The notes beneath the pieces were generated by a model, which was not told the origin of the DNA, searched no databases, and saw only the letters and a program-made list of their open reading frames with translations. Shown here one piece after another: positions 3,827-13,226 of a stretch of DNA of 64,000 nucleotides. Within the stretch, counting starts at the first letter, position 1. Each line of letters starts with the position of its first letter. Source of the stretch: a bacterium 1XD42-54 (lineage in GTDB: Bacteria; Bacillota; Clostridia; Lachnospirales; Lachnospiraceae). A program made the translations under genes and the position numbers. Location of the stretch: assembly GCA_003612585.1 (NCBI GenBank), contig RAZH01000002.1:335782-399781 (forward strand). The letters run 5' to 3'.

Positions 3827-5332
3827 ATGAAAAATATACTGGAGCTTTTGGAAGAGACAGAAGCAAAAAGGAAAGATCAGCCGGCTGTGGATGATGGCTG
3901 TATGTGTTTGACGTATACAGAGCTTGTGGAATTATCGCAGAAAATTGGGACAAAGCTGAGCGGAATGATTGGGCAGGGAGATCCGGTGGTGGTGTTGGCG
4001 GAAAAAAGTGCAATGGTTCTCGCTGCGATGTTTGGCGTGGTATATGCAGGAGGTTTTTATGTTCCTGTCAGTTTGCAGCAGCCGTCCGCGCGGATACATA
4101 AGATTCTGGAAACCGTTCAGGCGGGAGCAGTGATTACAGATCGGGCGAATGCGAAGATGCTGCATGACTGTAATTATCAGGGGACGGTTCTGTTTCTCGA
4201 AGATCTGACTCAGGGACAGAAGGATTCGAAAAAACTGGAGCAGATACGGTTAAGAAGCAAAGAGACAGACCGGCTTTACGGGATATTTACCTCAGGTTCT
4301 ACCGGAAATCCGAAGGGGATTGTCGTGAGTCATAGATCCGTGATTGATTTTATCGGCCACTTTACAGAGCTTTTTGAGATAAAGGAAAAAGATGTTTTAG
4401 GAAATCAGGCGCCGTTTGACTTTGATGTTTCTGTGAAAGATATTTATTCCTGTGTGGCAACAGGCGCCACGCTTGTGATTATACCGAAAAGTATGTTTTC
4501 AACGCCGTCTGTACTCGTGGATTATCTGTGTGAAAAGAAGGTAACGACACTGATTTGGGCCGTTTCGGCGCTGTGTCTGGTGTCAGGTTTGAAGGGATTG
4601 GAATATCGCGTACCGGAGCATGTCAGAAGAGTGCTGTTCAGCGGCGAGAGTATGCCAGCTGTTCATCTGAGGCTGTGGCAGAAAGCATTGCCGCAGGCAC
4701 GCTTTGTGAATCTGTATGGTCCGACCGAGATTACGTGTAACTGTACGTGGTATGCGGTTCCAGAGACGATATCAGATACGGAAAAGCTTCCGATCGGAAG
4801 GGCATTTCCGGGCAGACGGGTATTTTTGTTGGATGACGACGAAAATGAGGTCTGTGCAGAGGGGGAAACCGGAGAAATCTGCGTGTCAGGGGAATCGCTT
4901 GCCGAGGGGTATTATCATAATCCGGAGCAGACGCAGGAACGATTTTTGGTATCTGCGTCAGGAGAACGGTTTTACCGGACCGGAGACGTGGGTTATTTCG
5001 GGAAAGACGGATTGTTGTATTTTGCCGGTCGCAGAGATTTTCAGATCAAGCATATGGGCCACAGAATCGAGTTGGAGGAAATTGAGGCTGTGTTAAACGG
5101 GCTTCCGGGGGTTTGGCGCAGCTGCTGTGTGTTTGACCAGGAGAAACAGAGAATCCTTGCCTATTATGCGGGCGAGCCGGAGCCGGCTGAGGTGCGCAGA
5201 AGGATGAAAGAAGGATTGCCGGTGTACATGGTACCGCACAAATTTGTGAAAGTGGACGAGATGCCAGTGACGAAAAATGGCAAGCTTGACCGGGCCTGGT
5301 TTGGTAAGCTTGCGAAAGGAGCGGCCAGATGA
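3827..5332 (+). CDS. DltA-like adenylation enzyme (amino acid--carrier protein ligase)
   Basis: An ANL-superfamily adenylating enzyme of 501 residues that should activate an amino acid with ATP and load it onto the small carrier protein encoded two genes later. Core motifs are complete: FTSGSTGNPKG near 154-165 (A3), FDFDVSVKD with the amino-group-binding Asp at 200 (A4), LYGPTE near 296 (A5), YRTGD near 382 (A7), GRRDFQIKHMGHRIELEEIE (A8) and NGKLDR near 484 (A10). The start is ATG 3827 behind GGAGAGGAGGG, not an upstream ATG without a ribosome site. Overall it resembles DltA, but LFSGE places Ser272 where, as I recall, D-alanine-specific DltA has a selectivity cysteine, so the substrate may not be D-Ala. 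First gene of the operon, under paired GTTAAG boxes. Confidence 0.85.
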   Translation: MKNILELLEETEAKRKDQPAVDDGCMCLTYTELVELSQKIGTKLSGMIGQGDPVVVLAEKSAMVLAAMFGVVYAGGFYVPVSLQQPSARIHKILETVQAGAVITDRANAKMLHDCNYQGTVLFLEDLTQGQKDSKKLEQIRLRSKETDRLYGIFTSGSTGNPKGIVVSHRSVIDFIGHFTELFEIKEKDVLGNQAPFDFDVSVKDIYSCVATGATLVIIPKSMFSTPSVLVDYLCEKKVTTLIWAVSALCLVSGLKGLEYRVPEHVRRVLFSGESMPAVHLRLWQKALPQARFVNLYGPTEITCNCTWYAVPETISDTEKLPIGRAFPGRRVFLLDDDENEVCAEGETGEICVSGESLAEGYYHNPEQTQERFLVSASGERFYRTGDVGYFGKDGLLYFAGRRDFQIKHMGHRIELEEIEAVLNGLPGVWRSCCVFDQEKQRILAYYAGEPEPAEVRRRMKEGLPVYMVPHKFVKVDEMPVTKNGKLDRAWFGKLAKGAAR

Positions 5333-6552
5333 ATCGGAAAATTCTGGAATACGGTGCACATGCGTACGGGACACCGTTGTACATATTTGACCTGGATGCG
5401 CTGGCAGATGAAGTGCATAGAATACGCGCCTGCCTGGACCAAAAAGCAGAGCTTTGTTATGCAATGAAAGCAAATCCTTTTCTGACCGGCTCTTTTGCAG
5501 AATTGACAGACCGGATTGAAGTTTGCTCGATGGGAGAATTTCGGATATGTCGGGAGCTTGGAATCCATGCGGACAGGCTGGTGATATCCGGTGTCCTGAA
5601 AAAAGAGGAGGATTTGCTGGAAATTCTGGATTACTGCCAAGAAAACAGTGTTTATACGGCAGAATCCATGCGTCAGTTGCGTTGCCTTGCCGGGTGGGCC
5701 GAAAGCCATCAGAAAACGCTTCGCGTATATCCAAGGCTGACCAGTGGAAATCAGTTCGGTATGGATGAAGAGACAATCCGGCATCTGGTGCAGACACGGG
5801 CAGAATATCCTTTTTTGAAGATACAGGGGCTTCATTTTTTTTCCGGCACAGGAAAACGGAGACAGAAAGCGATCGAAAAAGAGCTCCGGTATCTCGATGA
5901 ATTTTTGCAGAACATAGAGCAGGAGGCGCAGTTTTCGTTCGCGGAGCTCGAGTATGGACCGGGGATTGGTGTTCCGTATTTTATGGATGAAGAAATCGAG
6001 ACTTTTTCGGATGAAGGCCTCCGTATGATTGCAGAAACGATTGACGGCATGAAGTGGAGCGGCCGTGTGCGTCTGGAACTTGGCCGTGCGCTTGCGGCGC
6101 GCTGTGGCTGTTATCTTACCACGATCAGGGATGTAAAATGCAGCAGAGATAAAAATTACTGTATTGTGGACGGAGGCATTCATCAAATAAACTATGACGG
6201 GCAGATTCGCGGGATGTATCAGCCTCATGTCATGTTGCTGCCATCAGAGAACAGCGTGACCGGACAGGAAGACGAAAACAGCGAAACTGCGGCGGATCGG
6301 GCATGGACTGTGTGCGGTTCTTTATGTACGGCAAATGACGTTTTGTGTCAGATCACATTGGAAAAAGAGCCGGAAGAAGGCGATGTTCTTGTTTTTGAAC
6401 GCACCGGCGCATATTCTGTGACAGAAGGAATGGCACTGTTTCTGAGCCACGAACTTCCAGGAATTGTTTGTTACAGTGAGAAAGATGGCTGGAAGCCTGC
6501 CAGAGAGCGTCAGGAGCTATACCAGTGGAACATGTGGAAGCAAACAAAGTAG
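5329..6552 (+). CDS. Fold-type III PLP-dependent decarboxylase (LysA/BtrK-like)
   Basis: A 407-residue alanine-racemase-barrel decarboxylase related to diaminopimelate decarboxylase. The PLP lysine is Lys47 in CYAMKANPF; GPGIGVPY forms the phosphate loop region, ELGRALAARCG the substrate arginine region, and the catalytic cysteine is Cys333 in SLCTANDVL. ATG 5329 overlaps the adenylation gene stop by four bases, so the two are translationally coupled. Canonical dlt operons lack such an enzyme. BtrK of butirosin synthesis, from this superfamily, decarboxylates glutamate while it is bound to a carrier protein. I therefore suspect action on a free or carrier-bound amino acid in this pathway; a house-keeping lysA role is less likely in this operon. 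Confidence 0.82.
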   Translation: MNRKILEYGAHAYGTPLYIFDLDALADEVHRIRACLDQKAELCYAMKANPFLTGSFAELTDRIEVCSMGEFRICRELGIHADRLVISGVLKKEEDLLEILDYCQENSVYTAESMRQLRCLAGWAESHQKTLRVYPRLTSGNQFGMDEETIRHLVQTRAEYPFLKIQGLHFFSGTGKRRQKAIEKELRYLDEFLQNIEQEAQFSFAELEYGPGIGVPYFMDEEIETFSDEGLRMIAETIDGMKWSGRVRLELGRALAARCGCYLTTIRDVKCSRDKNYCIVDGGIHQINYDGQIRGMYQPHVMLLPSENSVTGQEDENSETAADRAWTVCGSLCTANDVLCQITLEKEPEEGDVLVFERTGAYSVTEGMALFLSHELPGIVCYSEKDGWKPARERQELYQWNMWKQTK

Positions 6553-6604
6553 TAAGAAACGAATGAAAGAGAAAGGAACAGAACGATAAGTCTGAGGAGG
6601 AAGC

Positions 6605-6838
6605 ATGATGGAGAAAGTAATAGAAATTTTAATGGATATTGATGACAGTGTGGATTATGAGACAGAAGAACGGTTGATTGACGACCGGATTCTGGATTCA
6701 TTCGGTCTGATTTCCCTGGTAGCGGAGTTTGAAAATGAGTTTGGTGTCCGCATTGAGGCCACGGATATGATTCCGGCAAACTTTAACTCTGCCAGAGCAA
6801 TGTGGGCCATGATACAGCGGCTCATGGAGAGGTGCTAA
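6605..6838 (+). CDS. DltC-like acyl/aminoacyl carrier protein
   Basis: A 77-residue acidic four-helix carrier protein. The 4'-phosphopantetheine attachment site is Ser32 in ILDSFGLISLV, followed by the typical EFENEFGVRIE helix. It should hold the amino acid activated by the upstream adenylation enzyme and present it to the MBOAT protein. GAGGAGG at 6594-6600 precedes tandem ATGs at 6605 and 6608. The stop codon directly abuts the ATG of the MBOAT gene, as expected for a stoichiometric carrier/acyltransferase pair. Confidence 0.88.
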   Translation: MMEKVIEILMDIDDSVDYETEERLIDDRILDSFGLISLVAEFENEFGVRIEATDMIPANFNSARAMWAMIQRLMERC

Positions 6839-8428
6839 ATGGCATACCATACGAATTTATATCTGTTTCTTTTTTTGCCGGCGGTGCTTCTGCTGTATCA
6901 GATGGCGCCGCGCAGATGGCGAAGCGGCGTGCTGCTGTGCAGCAGTTATCTGTTCTTTGCTTCAATCAGCAAAGGCCTGGTTATCTACCTTGCGGGGAGC
7001 ACGCTTCTGACGTACGGCACAGGGCTTGCGCTGCTGCATCTGAAACAAAAGTGCAGCAGTGAGACGGCAGAGGTTGCGCGTGCGCAGGCACAGAACATCA
7101 GAGAAAAATTCCGGAAAAAAGAAAAACTTGTTCTTCTGGCCGGGATTTTCTCTCTGGTGTTTCTTTTGGGTTATCTGAAATACTATAACTTTTTTGCAGA
7201 CAATTTAAACCGACTGGTTGAAAGAGCAGGCGGCGCTTCCTTTCTTTCTCTAAAAAGGCTGGCTGTACCGGTCGGGATTTCTTTTTATACGCTGGAAGCG
7301 ATCGGGTACATGATGGATGTCTACTGGGATCGTATGATCGCGGAACGTCGTCCGTGGAAGCTGGCATTGTTTCTTTCCTTTTTCCCCAAAATGATGGAAG
7401 GCCCGATTTGCAGTTATTCTGCTCTGTCTGAGCAGCTAGGTACAGGCGATGCGCTCAAAGCAGAAAATCTGACGCATGGATTTGTACGGATTCTCTGGGG
7501 GCTGTTTAAAAAGATGGTAGTGGCTGACAGGCTGTATCTGATGGTAAATACAGTATTTGATAATTACAAAGGCTACAGCGGCATGGTGATTGTGATAGGG
7601 GCCATTGCTTATACGATACAGCTTTATATGGAGTTTTCCGGGAGTATTGATATTGTGATCGGAAGCGGAAGACTGTTTGGCATTGTACTGCCAGAGAATT
7701 TCCGTCAGCCGTTCTGCGCGGTGAATGCGGCGGACTTCTGGCGCAGATGGCACATATCGCTTGGTGTGTGGCTGAAAACGTATGTGTTTTATCCGGTGTC
7801 TGTATCGGAATATGTAAAGAAGTGGAACCGTTTTGCGAGAAAGCGTTTTGGAAAATACTGGGCGAAGGTAGGGCTTTCTGCGCTGTGCCTGTTTCCGGTA
7901 TGGTTTTTAAACGGACTGTGGCATGGGGCAAAGTGGAGCTATCTGTTCTATGGTATGTATTATTTTGTGATTCTGCTGATTGGCGTGATGGCGGAACCGC
8001 TTGGAAGCCAGGTGCGCAAAGTGCTGCATGTAAAAGAGAACAGCAGGTGGTGGAGATGCCTTCAGATCGGCAAAACATGGCTCATCATTTTTACCGGAGA
8101 ACTGTTTTTCAGAGCGGATACACTGCGTGCCGGCCTTGCGATGTTCGGAAGTATTTTCCGGGATTTTGATTTTGCTACCTTATGGAATGGCACGATTTTG
8201 AACCTCGGACTTGGGAGAGCTGATTTGTTGGCAATTGTGCTGGGGTGTATTGTGGTTGGAATTGTGGGTTCATTAAAGGAACGAAATCGCCCGGTACTGG
8301 ATGGCCTGCTTCAGGCCAGGATGCCGCTTCGCTGGGCGGTGTACTGTACTTTGATTCTGGCTGTTGTGATTTTGGGCGCGTATGGCAGTGGTTATCAGGA
8401 GGTGGATCTGATTTATGCAGGATTTTAA
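6839..8428 (+). CDS. DltB-like MBOAT acyltransferase
   Basis: A 529-residue polytopic membrane-bound O-acyltransferase that should move the carrier-bound acyl or aminoacyl group across the membrane. About ten or more hydrophobic segments are visible. The MBOAT signature is complete: [18 protein letters not shown] with His305, and [16 protein letters not shown] with the invariant His362. Its ATG follows the carrier protein stop without any gap, and its end overlaps the DltD-like gene by 14 bases. At over 500 residues it is longer than typical DltB (about 400) and nearer in size to alginate-type MBOATs, with an insertion between residues 75 and 100. Confidence 0.9.
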
Positions 8429-9392
8429 AAACTGGAAGACAGTAAAAAGAGGCTGCATTTTTTTCCTTTTGGTGACGGCGCTGCTTTTTGTGGCATCCCG
8501 AATGGTGGACCCTGTTTTCTGGTATGCAAAAGGGAACATAGAGGATCGGAACAAGTGCATTGCAGGTGTTTTGTCGGAGGAACCAAATACCGTTGATGTT
8601 CTGGTATTGGGAGATAGTGAGACGTATACTTCATTTTCTCCGTTGCAGCTATGGTCAGAACAGGGGATTCCTGCCTATGTCTGCGGGCAGTCAGGGCAGT
8701 GGATGCAGGAGGCTTACTATATTTAAAAAAAGGTTCTCAAAAAACAGGATTTAAAGACAGTGGTTTTAGAAACGAATATGTTTTTCCGCTGCCAGGGGAT
8801 TATGCAGGATATGCAGCTTTCGCTTGGGGAGCTGACGGCGTATTATTTTCCGATTTTCCGGTATCACAATCTCTGGAAGGAGGCGTTTGACAAGGAAGAA
8901 GATGCGCTGACGAGCTACAAAGGGTTTGAGATCCGGTCTGCTGTGAAACCATATGAGGGCGGAGATTATATGCAGGAAGAGAAGGAGCAGGATAAGCTGT
9001 CCGCTTACGGGCAGTTATACTTTGATCAGATCCTTCGCCTTTGCAGGAAGCACGAAATCCAGGTGGTTTTGTACAGTGTGCCCTCGCCTTCCAACTGTAA
9101 TTACCACACCCATGATGTGATCAGCAACCTTGCAAAGAAAAAAGAGATATTGTATGTGGATCTGAATCTGAAGCTGGAAGAGCTTGGGATTGACTGGAAA
9201 AAAGACAGCCTTGACGGCGGAGATCATCTGAATTTGTCAGGGGCAAAGAAAGCAACTGCTTATTTGGGCCAATATCTGAAAGACGCGTGTGGTCTCGAGG
9301 ACAGAAGGGGTCAGGACGCGTACGACGAATGGGATAAAAAGGCGAAAAAATATAAAAAGAAGGTTCAGAAAATTTTGAAGTCCAGAAAATAG
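8415..9392 (+). pseudogene. DltD-like SGNH protein interrupted by an in-frame TAA
   Basis: A membrane-anchored SGNH-hydrolase-fold protein of about 325 codons, analogous to DltD, which in dlt systems passes the group from DltB to the extracellular polymer. The N-terminal transmembrane helix (about 12-28) is followed by VLVLGDSET with nucleophile Ser68. The frame is cut by TAA at 8724-8726 (codon 104). It continues without a shift as KKVLKKQDLKTVVLETN and reaches the catalytic Asp/His segment DGGDHLNLSGAKKA. Related proteins would be expected to have a leucine (TTA) at the stop, so one substitution explains the damage. Neither half holds the whole triad, so if the stop is real the protein is probably inactive. 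A GTG at 8760 could restart the second half but has no good ribosome site. Confidence 0.8.
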
Positions 9393-9719
9393 AATATCTC
9401 AATAGATTGATATGATGGGAAGAGGCGTACCTCTTCCTTTTTTGTATTTATGTAATTGTATATGCGGAGTTTTTGTGGAAAAAGAAGTACAAAGATGAAC
9501 AGCAGATGAGGGAATATGTGAAAAAATTTGCGAGAAAACAAAGCATATGAAACAGGTAAATGACCATATGTCTGAATACTCTTTGATACAAGAAGAAAAA
9601 GAAATAGCAGAACAGCCACTTGACGGCACCGGCCGAAAATGATACGATAGGGAAGTCTGTACATAATCTAGTAGATGCAGACCTTTGAAAATACATGGTA
9701 TTGTAGAGGACGGGTGTTT
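9393..9719. other. Intergenic stretch before nrdG
   Basis: About 330 bases. It contains the terminator of the dlt-like operon (9418-9443). The rest is AT-rich with only very short ORFs, such as 31 codons at 9547-9642 without a ribosome site. Nothing else is supportable. Confidence 0.5.
9418..9443 (+). terminator. Intrinsic terminator of the dlt-like operon
   Basis: An 8-bp stem GGAAGAGG/CCTCTTCC with a four-base loop, followed by TTTTTT. Confidence 0.9.
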
Positions 9720-11567: not shown

Positions 11568-13226
11568 ATGGGGGAGAAGAAGATGCGGTTTCAGGAGAAG
11601 CTTCGCAGATACTCAAAATCGGAAATCTGGGAAGAATATTGTGGCTTTCTGGATATGACGATGGAAGAGTATATGAACATGCAGAAGCGCCTCGTGGCAG
11701 AGGAGATTAAACTGTGGTGTGGCAGTGAGCTTGGAAAGCGGATTTTAAACGGGAAGTGTCCCGGTACGCTGGAAGAGTTTCGTGCCATGGTTCCACTTAC
11801 GACTTACGATGATTATGCAGATATTCTGTTGCGAAAAGAGACGACCAGCCTTCCGGAGGAGCCGGTACTTTGGATACAGACGACGTGGGAAGGCGGGATG
11901 TATCCGATGAAAATGGCGCCGTATACGAAGAGTATGCTGGACACTTATAAACGAAATGTCATGGCCTGTTTTATTCTGGCAACCGGAAAAGAGCGCGGCG
12001 ATTTTGACATATCAGTTACGGATCATATGCTGTACGCTCTGGCGCCGCTTCCGTATGCGACAGGGCTTTTGCCATTGCTGCTTCATGATGAGATTGATAT
12101 TGAATATTTGCCTCCTGTCAAGGAAGCAGTCCATATGAGTTTTCAGGAACGCAATGCAAAAGGATTTAAAATGGGCCTGAAAAAAGGAATTGAGTACTTT
12201 TTTGGGCTTGGCAGCGTGACGTATTTTGTTAGTAAAAGTCTTTCGGCTTTACAGGAAGGCGGGAAAGGTTCACTTGCCGGAAAACTGAACCAGATTTCTC
12301 CGAAGATGATGCTGCGCTATGTCTCAGCCAGAAAAAGATGCAGACAGGAGGAGCGGGAGCTTTTGCCGCGCGATCTGTTTACACTGAAAGGTTTTATGTG
12401 TGCCGGAACGGATAACTGGTGCTACAAAGACGAGCTGGAAGAGATGTGGGGCATCCGTCCGATGGAGATTTTTGCCGGAACAGAACCGACATGTGTGGGA
12501 ACTGAGGCATGGTCCAGGAGCGGTATGTACTTTTTTCCGGATGCCTGCTTTTATGAGTTTATACCGGAAAACGAAATGTACAGAAATCTGGACGACCCGT
12601 CTTATGTGCCGCGCACTTATCTGATGGATGAGCTGACAGCGGGAGAGAAATATGAGATTGTAGTTACAGTCTTAAAAGGCGGTGCGTTTGCGCGGTATCG
12701 TGTGGGTGACGTATACCGTTGTCTTGGAAACGGCTGCCGGGAAGATGGCACGAAGATTCCAAGATTTTCCTATATAGACCGGGTACCTTGGGTGATTGAT
12801 ATTGCCGGATTTACCCGGATTACGGAAAAATCGATTCGTCATGCGATCGAATTATCCGGTCTGAAGATTGAGGATTGGTTTGCAGTGAAGGAATATACAA
12901 AGGAAAACAGGCCGCAGCTTCATATGTATGTGGAGCTTAGGCGAGACTGTATTTCAGGAGCAGCGCTTGGCAGAGAGATTCTGAAAGAGCATTTGAGCGT
13001 GTATGTAAAATATGTGGATGATGATTATAAGGATCTGAAAAAGATTCTTGGCATGGACCCATTAAATATTACGGTAGTAAAATGCGGAACCTTTGAGAAA
13101 TATGAGAGCGTGTATGGATGCAAAATACGTAAAATAAATCCACCGGCCTGCGAGGTGGCGGACTTTGTTGCGCTGCAAAGCGCCAGAGGCCCGCTGTGGA
13201 AGGGAGGCAGTTATGGTGAGCTATAG
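11568..13226 (+). CDS. GH3-superfamily protein (putative acyl-adenylate/amido synthetase)
   Basis: A 552-residue protein resembling bacterial members of the GH3 auxin-responsive family, which share the ANL fold and adenylate carboxylates. Supporting segments are VPLTTYDDYADILLR near the N-terminus, the central FAGTEPTCVGTEAW nucleotide-binding region, and AFARYRVGDVYRC followed by PRFSYIDRVPWVIDIAGFTRITEKSI, which matches the C-terminal lid. ATG 11583 behind GGGGGAG is an alternative start five codons in. The end overlaps the HD-GYP gene by 14 bases, so the two are coupled. The substrate and pathway are unknown; the surrounding genes suggest a membrane or signalling link only by association. 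Confidence 0.75.
   Translation: MGEKKMRFQEKLRRYSKSEIWEEYCGFLDMTMEEYMNMQKRLVAEEIKLWCGSELGKRILNGKCPGTLEEFRAMVPLTTYDDYADILLRKETTSLPEEPVLWIQTTWEGGMYPMKMAPYTKSMLDTYKRNVMACFILATGKERGDFDISVTDHMLYALAPLPYATGLLPLLLHDEIDIEYLPPVKEAVHMSFQERNAKGFKMGLKKGIEYFFGLGSVTYFVSKSLSALQEGGKGSLAGKLNQISPKMMLRYVSARKRCRQEERELLPRDLFTLKGFMCAGTDNWCYKDELEEMWGIRPMEIFAGTEPTCVGTEAWSRSGMYFFPDACFYEFIPENEMYRNLDDPSYVPRTYLMDELTAGEKYEIVVTVLKGGAFARYRVGDVYRCLGNGCREDGTKIPRFSYIDRVPWVIDIAGFTRITEKSIRHAIELSGLKIEDWFAVKEYTKENRPQLHMYVELRRDCISGAALGREILKEHLSVYVKYVDDDYKDLKKILGMDPLNITVVKCGTFEKYESVYGCKIRKINPPACEVADFVALQSARGPLWKGGSYGEL

Follow-up and report, generated by a model that had tools for sequence, protein, structure and literature searches.

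A Dlt-like operon with a built-in pyridoxal phosphate-dependent decarboxylase in a relative of the Lachnospiraceae, and its possible role in non-alanine acylation of the cell surface

Introduction

D-Alanylation is the textbook route by which Gram-positive bacteria add positive charge to surface polymers. In the DltABCD(X) system, a stand-alone adenylation enzyme, a carrier protein, a membrane-bound O-acyltransferase (MBOAT) of the DltB fold and a DltD-like SGNH protein are encoded in one operon. Here, we describe an operon with these same functions in a 64,000-nucleotide stretch of DNA (contig RAZH01000002.1, positions 335,782 to 399,781, assembly GCA_003612585.1), called the window below, from bacterium 1XD42-54, an organism related to the Lachnospiraceae. 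Its five functions, all on the + strand, are an adenylation enzyme of the nonribosomal peptide synthetase (NRPS)/DltA type, a fold-III decarboxylase dependent on pyridoxal 5'-phosphate (PLP), a carrier, a DltB-like MBOAT and a DltD-like SGNH protein. Unlike in the Dlt system, the A, C and B proteins fall below the equivalog cut-offs, the adenylation pocket is a different one, a decarboxylase is added and an acyl-shuttle motif is fused to the MBOAT. Centred on the Lachnospiraceae, the operon is a conserved variant of Dlt-type surface acylation, and the decarboxylase is present in most sampled copies with the same pocket. No such operon was found in the titles and abstract openings listed by searches of an open-licence literature collection.

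Other described systems share parts of this set; they are cited here from excerpts of the papers. PatA/PatB and other MBOAT–SGNH pairs resemble the window operon in having a C-terminal FXYXXF-type motif together with a separate SGNH protein; this motif is an acyl shuttle, fused to the MBOAT in carrier-less acyl-CoA (coenzyme A) systems (PMC12148441, 2025). PatA differs in using acetyl-CoA, in pathways described there as lacking a carrier, whereas the window has both a carrier and an adenylation enzyme. Conversely, an adenylation enzyme, a stand-alone carrier and a PLP decarboxylase occur together in the AfcQ/AfcK/AfcP, BolO/BolC/BolN, VinN/VinL/VinO and FlvN systems for beta-amino-acid starters. 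AfcQ loads L-Asp via its beta-carboxyl onto AfcK, and on-carrier decarboxylation by AfcP was shown in vitro (PMC12186527); it is reported for VinO, which acts on VinL-bound 3-methylaspartate (PMC11284099), and has been proposed for BolN (PMC7756342). These systems differ from the window operon in feeding secondary metabolites, and the excerpts mention no MBOAT/SGNH transfer module.

Three further systems are more distant. BtrK of the butirosin pair BtrI/BtrK is the nearest solved decarboxylase and has a common GxLCT..D region, but its gene context is different and the overall likeness is distant (95 bits). The exosortase A-associated ligase/decarboxylase pair (TIGR03098/TIGR03099) supplies the best NCBIfam match of the window decarboxylase, at a score far below the cut-off (157.4 versus 478.45 bits for TIGR03099). 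AlmE, which acts in lipopolysaccharide glycylation, is likewise an adenylation enzyme serving the aminoacylation of a surface glycolipid, with an active site likened to that of DltA; it is specific for Gly, and the excerpt mentions no decarboxylase (PMC11253843).

Results

Organization and conservation of the operon

An earlier note on this DNA had described five tightly coupled genes. All five are present, with functions assigned by family matches and relatives (Table 1), and the overlaps it gave are correct: the adenylation and decarboxylase genes overlap by 4 bases, the MBOAT gene begins directly after the carrier stop (0 bases), and the SGNH frame, taken from 8415, overlaps the MBOAT gene by 14 bases. 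To these we add a gap of 52 bases that separates the carrier gene from the decarboxylase stop, and a terminator-like hairpin behind the operon (z -4.13; 0 of 200 shuffles folded equally well).

Table 1. Features of the operon (positions are those of the window)
Feature	Position	Strand	Basis or remark
Stand-alone amino-acid adenylation enzyme, NRPS/DltA type	3827..5332	+	Family models
Pocket codons D200-V201-S202-V203-K204 (GrsA 235-239; invariant Lys at 239)	4424..4438	+	Motif mapping to GrsA positions
Fold-III PLP decarboxylase, LysA/BtrK superfamily	5329..6552	+	PF02784, PF00278; best PDB match BtrK
Predicted PLP-binding Lys47 codon	5467..5469	+	K in 90/90 aligned sequences
C333-T334-A-N-D337 motif (Cys and Asp kept, Glu of LysA replaced by Thr)	6325..6339	+	90-sequence alignment
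Carrier protein, acyl carrier protein/DltC-like	6605..6838	+	PF00550, 20.7 bits (cut-off 20.8)
Predicted phosphopantetheine Ser32 codon	6698..6700	+	Ser in 79/79 carriers, window included
MBOAT acyltransferase, DltB-like fold, C-terminal acyl-shuttle motif	6839..8428	+	PF03062
C-terminal hexapeptide LIYAGF, FXYXXF-type putative acyl shuttle (Leu replaces first Phe)	8408..8425	+	Motif conservation
DltD-like SGNH gene, N half (GDSE motif; N-terminal hydrophobic stretch by eye)	8415..8726	+	Ends at in-frame TAA
In-frame TAA interrupting the SGNH gene	8724..8726	+	Intact copy exists elsewhere
DltD-like SGNH gene, C half (GDHLN motif)	8760..9392	+	Same frame as N half
Intrinsic terminator-like hairpin and T run	9417..9444	+	Folding versus shuffles

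A genome scan with the window decarboxylase as query gave 291 confirmed relatives, the best 80 of which make up our main set of related loci. Mediterraneibacter, Blautia, Clostridium, Eubacterium and "Lachnospiraceae bacterium" are among the names in the record titles, and one metagenome-assembled genome is titled Bacteroides. The earlier note had suggested a search for the five-gene set, and it was found clustered on one strand without a gap above 1.2 kb in 69/80 loci, 68 of which have no gap above 300 bases; the other 11 are mostly cut by contig ends. The order adenylation–decarboxylase–carrier–MBOAT is kept in 63 of the 73 loci having these four genes, ten being rearranged. Named by eye, the largest flanking gene cluster is that of a response regulator, found at 26 loci, followed by a histidine kinase and an SGNH protein of divergent sequence at 19 loci each; this SGNH protein belongs to the operon.

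Since these 80 loci had been picked by their decarboxylase, we also sampled 100 genomes of the family independently of them. With the window's own genome included, the decarboxylase was found in 26 of them (E 1e-30) and the adenylation enzyme in 41 (E 1e-100), and a Dlt-like adenylation gene adjoined the decarboxylase in 24/26. The exceptions are G057 (G numbers denote genomes and L numbers loci), where the contig stretch encodes a carrier, an MBOAT and an SGNH protein but lacks an adenylation gene, and G091, with a decarboxylase relative at 30% identity. Nineteen of the 24 loci, again with our own, have a same-strand MBOAT match within 6 kb; one of the remaining five, L126, is a 3.3-kb contig. 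In a sample of the phylum, the decarboxylase was found in 3/299 genomes (own included, E 1e-60). The five-gene association is more than chance.

The adenylation enzyme has a pocket unlike that of DltA

The adenylation enzyme scored 353.2 bits against the general amino-acid adenylation model TIGR01733, above the cut-off of 317.4, and 317.4 bits against the DltA equivalog TIGR01734, below the cut-off of 559.85. Its predicted structure (predicted local distance difference test score, pLDDT, 90.1) had NRPS adenylation domains and DltA as its joint closest matches. We took the ten GrsA pocket positions from an excerpt of PMC12283262 and mapped them by motif. The window enzyme, which carries Asp235 and Lys517, reads DVKSLSLCNK, versus DLMSLCTVAK for the DltA of the same genome. 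An adenylation frame longer than 440 amino acids was found in 75 of the 80 loci, and the pocket DVK[SP]xS[LIV]CNK was kept in 75/75 of these enzymes. Compared with the D-Ala pocket residues reported for B. cereus (D197, L198 and C269; PMC11253843), the Asp is retained, Leu is replaced by Val and Cys by Ser, in the window and in 75/75 relatives.

Because the pocket is kept throughout and is unlike that of the genome's own DltA, the group seems to have one common substrate, other than D-Ala. The earlier note is supported on this point, in that the pocket is not the one for D-Ala. Judged from its residues, Lys239 suggests a carboxylate or polar group in the substrate, and Val236, Ser301 and Leu322 suggest that the substrate is small. 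The conversion of Glu to gamma-aminobutyric acid (GABA), given as an example in the earlier note, is possible; considering the small pocket, Asp to beta-alanine would be at least as likely. Asp as the substrate is a guess from size and precedent.

The decarboxylase resembles BtrK more than LysA

The traits of BtrK/VinO-type decarboxylases, a PLP-binding Lys, a catalytic Cys and a Thr after the Cys, were all present. In an alignment of 90 sequences, window included, Lys47, Cys333 and Asp337 were each found in 90/90, and at position 334 Thr occurs in 86 sequences and Ser in 4, against Glu in the LysA-like protein of the same genome. The best PDB matches were to BtrK (2j66/7ru7, 95 bits), in line with the comparison drawn in the earlier note, ahead of 6knh and diaminopimelate decarboxylases, and Cys333-Thr334 is as in BtrK and 6knh, not the Cys-Glu of LysA. 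In a second alignment (A1; 22 rows, window included), TIGR03099 matched 22/22 rows and the N-citrylornithine decarboxylase model FslC 18/22, but the lysA model matched 22/22 as well. This pattern of matches would fit, though it does not prove, a substrate with its distal end conjugated rather than free.

At one related locus (L119:7616-10960), the decarboxylase is part of a longer frame that also encodes Ig/Rib-like domains, a transglutaminase core and, judged by eye, a membrane segment.

The carrier and an MBOAT with a fused shuttle motif

The carrier scored below the cut-off for AmcB (38.6 bits) and for the DltC models NF003464 (33.8 of 68) and TIGR01688 (21.9 of 52.35). The MBOAT scored 141.7 bits against the DltB equivalog TIGR04091 (cut-off 375), and the best PDB match of its model (pLDDT 86.5) was DltB. 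His305 and His362 were invariant in 29/29 sequences. At the C-terminus, the model has two long helices (460-481 and 495-513) followed by a low-confidence tail (516-529) bearing the LIYAGF hexapeptide. The motif follows two long C-terminal helices as in PatA, a likeness not matched helix by helix. Among the 73 complete MBOATs of the 80 loci, the pattern [FILVMYW].Y..F was found in 68 and the shuttle Tyr was in place in 72; the sole exception, L040, has no such motif. Because PMC12148441, in the excerpt, places the fused shuttle in carrier-less systems and a carrier is present here, the operon is, as far as its motifs indicate, a hybrid of known arrangements. The dlt-like carrier/MBOAT/SGNH pathway proposed in the earlier note is supported.

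A second class of MBOATs, ending in FIYAQF, was joined to the same decarboxylase half at L045, L050, L067 and similar loci; many FIYAQF-class loci have the divergent SGNH partner (19 loci). These MBOATs possibly serve a different acceptor.

The SGNH gene is interrupted in the window

The DltD-like SGNH identity of the fifth gene, as given in the earlier note, holds; that it is a single open frame does not, as the TAA at 8724-8726 had been overlooked. The reading frame is unchanged beyond the stop, with GDSE ahead of it and GDHLN behind, so that the Ser and His motifs are both present, in separate frames. The N half matched the 325-amino-acid database protein P0121 at 101/103 residues and the C half matched it at 100%; the cluster of P0121 has 23 member sequences from 13 contigs. 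As P0121 matches both halves, an intact near-identical copy exists. Either this strain has a nonsense change of its own or the stop is an error of the assembly. The split protein would presumably be inactive, because GDSE and GDHLN lie on opposite sides of the TAA.

Pfam and NCBIfam scans gave 0 matches for either half, and the name SGNH rests on the motifs and on the names given to relatives. Among 54 relatives longer than 250 amino acids, the Ser pattern was found in 53 and G[DN]HLN in 49.

Association between pocket and decarboxylase

Leaving out our own genome, we compared the pockets of 48 adenylation enzymes from the family sample. The decarboxylase adjoins the enzyme in 20/25 cases with the DVK pocket and in 3/23 with other pockets (Fisher p 3e-6). 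The earlier note had called the decarboxylase an integral member of the operon; this is so for most of the sampled same-pocket relatives, but it is not universal.

Two decarboxylase-bearing loci, L118 and L123, have the pocket IARSCSQASK, with no Asp235 and with Arg at 239. Alpha-amino-acid adenylation domains keep Asp235 (PMC12283262), and its absence at L118 and L123 argues for activation of a carboxyl other than the alpha-carboxyl there, as read from the pocket residues.

Twenty other-pocket enzymes have no decarboxylase, and 14 of these sit with a carrier, an MBOAT with a shuttle-like Tyr and an SGNH protein (L104, L105, L108-L110, L112, L113, L115, L100, L102, L116, L131, L133 and L134); L111 has a similar set without a carrier match. 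Because 14/20 sit in such Dlt-like sets with a shuttle-type MBOAT, these operons suggest a wider, diversified Dlt-like family. At L099, a DVK locus, a formyltransferase-domain gene lies between the adenylation enzyme and the carrier (L099:5086-8525), a possible alternative tailoring; the gene upstream is amidotransferase-like by eye, with no Pfam match. The neighbours at L098 and L107 are repeat-bearing proteins, some of them transglutaminase-like by eye.

Context in the genome

The same genome has a separate DltA, above cut-off, with a DltB-like MBOAT beside it, and the operon therefore looks like an addition to D-alanylation, not a replacement. A canonical D-Ala operon was rejected, as the A, C and B proteins are below the Dlt equivalog cut-offs, the pocket is different and the genome has a separate DltA. 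Six MBOAT matches were found in the genome (G000 contigs 4, 11, 23 and 31), including that of the operon and that of the dltA neighbour.

There is also a separate LysA-like gene (290.5 bits, just below the lysA cut-off of 297.9), and no match to PanD or PanC was found in a search of the genome. The decarboxylase therefore seems to be needed neither for lysine nor for pantothenate. Lysine supply was rejected: besides the separate LysA-like gene, the window decarboxylase scored only 143 bits against the lysA model, and Thr replaces the Glu after its Cys. The suggestion in the earlier note that the enzyme makes lysine for loading is thus unlikely. Pantothenate supply was rejected with the missing PanD and PanC matches, given which free beta-alanine for CoA is not the purpose of the decarboxylase.

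Two kilobases past the operon, the window encodes a protein of the GH3 family (11568-13226; PF23571 above cut-off, PF03321 just below), which we take to be an adenylate-forming family.

Discussion

From the sequences and the analogy with the Afc and Vin systems, we give an even chance to a pathway in which an acidic amino acid loses its carboxyl while bound to the carrier, and the product is then esterified to a cell-surface polymer. Such an amino acid, with Asp favoured and Glu possible, would first be activated at its side-chain carboxyl and loaded onto the carrier, both by the adenylation enzyme. The decarboxylase would then remove the free alpha-carboxyl, leaving a beta-alanyl- (or GABA-) carrier, from which the acyl group would cross the membrane by way of the MBOAT, arriving on the Tyr in the C-terminal hexapeptide of that protein. 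Finally, the Ser of the SGNH protein would accept the acyl group for transfer to a hydroxyl of the polymer. In this genome, the last step would work only if the stop is an error of the assembly or a different SGNH protein stands in. For the operon pathway, we infer the substrate, the on-carrier timing, the product and the acceptor.

A number of observations weigh against this pathway. An acidic substrate is not proved by the pocket, because Lys239 is non-specific and six of the ten positions equal the serine code DVWHLSLVDK (PMC12283262). Lys239 is also found in homoserine codes (PMC12283262) and in DAKSAGLGMK pockets, mostly without a decarboxylase, and was dropped as a diagnostic for Glu on these grounds. 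Of the VinN-type features, Ser301 is present and Arg331 is absent, being Asn here, and the beta13-beta14 loop, which is shortened in VinN, showed no gap relative to LgrA in an alignment that lacked VinN itself. The link between pocket and decarboxylase is clustered on the tree, and an independent-pairs test had too few pairs to reach significance. Five of the 25 DVK loci (L098, L099, L103, L106 and L107) lack an adjacent decarboxylase. Three of those five genomes (G064, G066 and G067) carry one at another locus; the same-pocket genomes G001 and G046 gave no decarboxylase match at E 1e-30, nor any PanD match, and the same pocket seems to work there without a decarboxylation step. L135 has a third IAR-type pocket and neither a decarboxylase nor an MBOAT nearby; two of the 80 loci, L067 and L071, have the decarboxylase, carrier, MBOAT and SGNH genes but, over some 8 kb upstream, lack an adenylation gene; and four of the 24 decarboxylase and adenylation loci, L121, L127, L129 and L144, lie on contigs with room and have no same-strand MBOAT match within 6 kb. 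The lysA model matched the decarboxylase in 22/22 rows of alignment A1. Lastly, flanking clusters present in at least 4 loci included, by eye, no glycosyltransferase or teichoic-acid gene and no recurring acceptor-polymer gene.

LysA and other fold-III enzymes have free substrates, and here too the free amino acid might be decarboxylated first, with the adenylation enzyme loading the product (for example beta-alanine or GABA) for transfer by the Dlt-like module. Same-pocket operons without a decarboxylase would be expected if the product came from elsewhere, and such operons exist. Against this, the invariant Lys239 would suit a substrate that still has its second carboxylate, and the two genomes without a decarboxylase match have no PanD match either. 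Furthermore, direct activation of beta-alanine was excluded for AfcQ (PMC12186527), and feeding beta-alanine did not rescue a BolN mutant (PMC7756342). On balance, decarboxylation ahead of loading is unlikely.

It is more doubtful still that the product of the module is a small molecule, soluble or lipid-linked, instead of a polymer ester. The homologous trios do make natural products (PMC11284099, PMC7756342, PMC12186527), and the four decarboxylase and adenylation loci without a nearby MBOAT match could be read in this way. However, a shuttle MBOAT with an SGNH protein is a cell-envelope acylation pair (PMC12148441), and both are found in 69/80 loci, as well as in the window with its broken SGNH frame.

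The resemblance to LysA, in score and across A1, together with one public record named "diaminopimelate decarboxylase family protein", could point to a lysine- or ornithine-pathway decarboxylase in a system that attaches lysine or another basic alpha-amino acid. We consider this very improbable in view of the separate LysA-like gene, the score far below the LysA cut-off and the change from Glu to Thr in the CE motif, and the invariant pocket Lys would disfavour a basic side chain. Equally improbable is a racemase making a D-amino acid for Dlt-like transfer, to which a match to PF01168 (Ala_racemase_N) and public records named "alanine racemase" (P0021, P0109 and P0110) would point, since PF02784 and PF00278, both decarboxylase domains, match the enzyme, its decarboxylase motif keeps Cys and Asp in 90/90 sequences and the racemase model TIGR00492 gave 19.6 bits (cut-off 168).

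More broadly, and with slightly less than even confidence, the operon may be a branch of an unrecognised, Lachnospiraceae-centred Dlt-like family with diversified pockets, in which tailoring enzymes act on the loaded group before it is transferred; the present branch would decarboxylate an acidic amino acid on the carrier to a beta-alanyl or GABA group, export it by the fused shuttle and place it on surface polymers as omega-amino-acid esters. The system would allow the acyl-shuttle model to be tested where a carrier and a fused shuttle occur together, a combination that PMC12148441, in the excerpt, does not describe. If the proposed pathway is true, it would provide a cationic surface decoration distinct from D-alanine: some Clostridia would write a different amine on their surface, and charge, tolerance of antimicrobial peptides and immune sensing might be affected.

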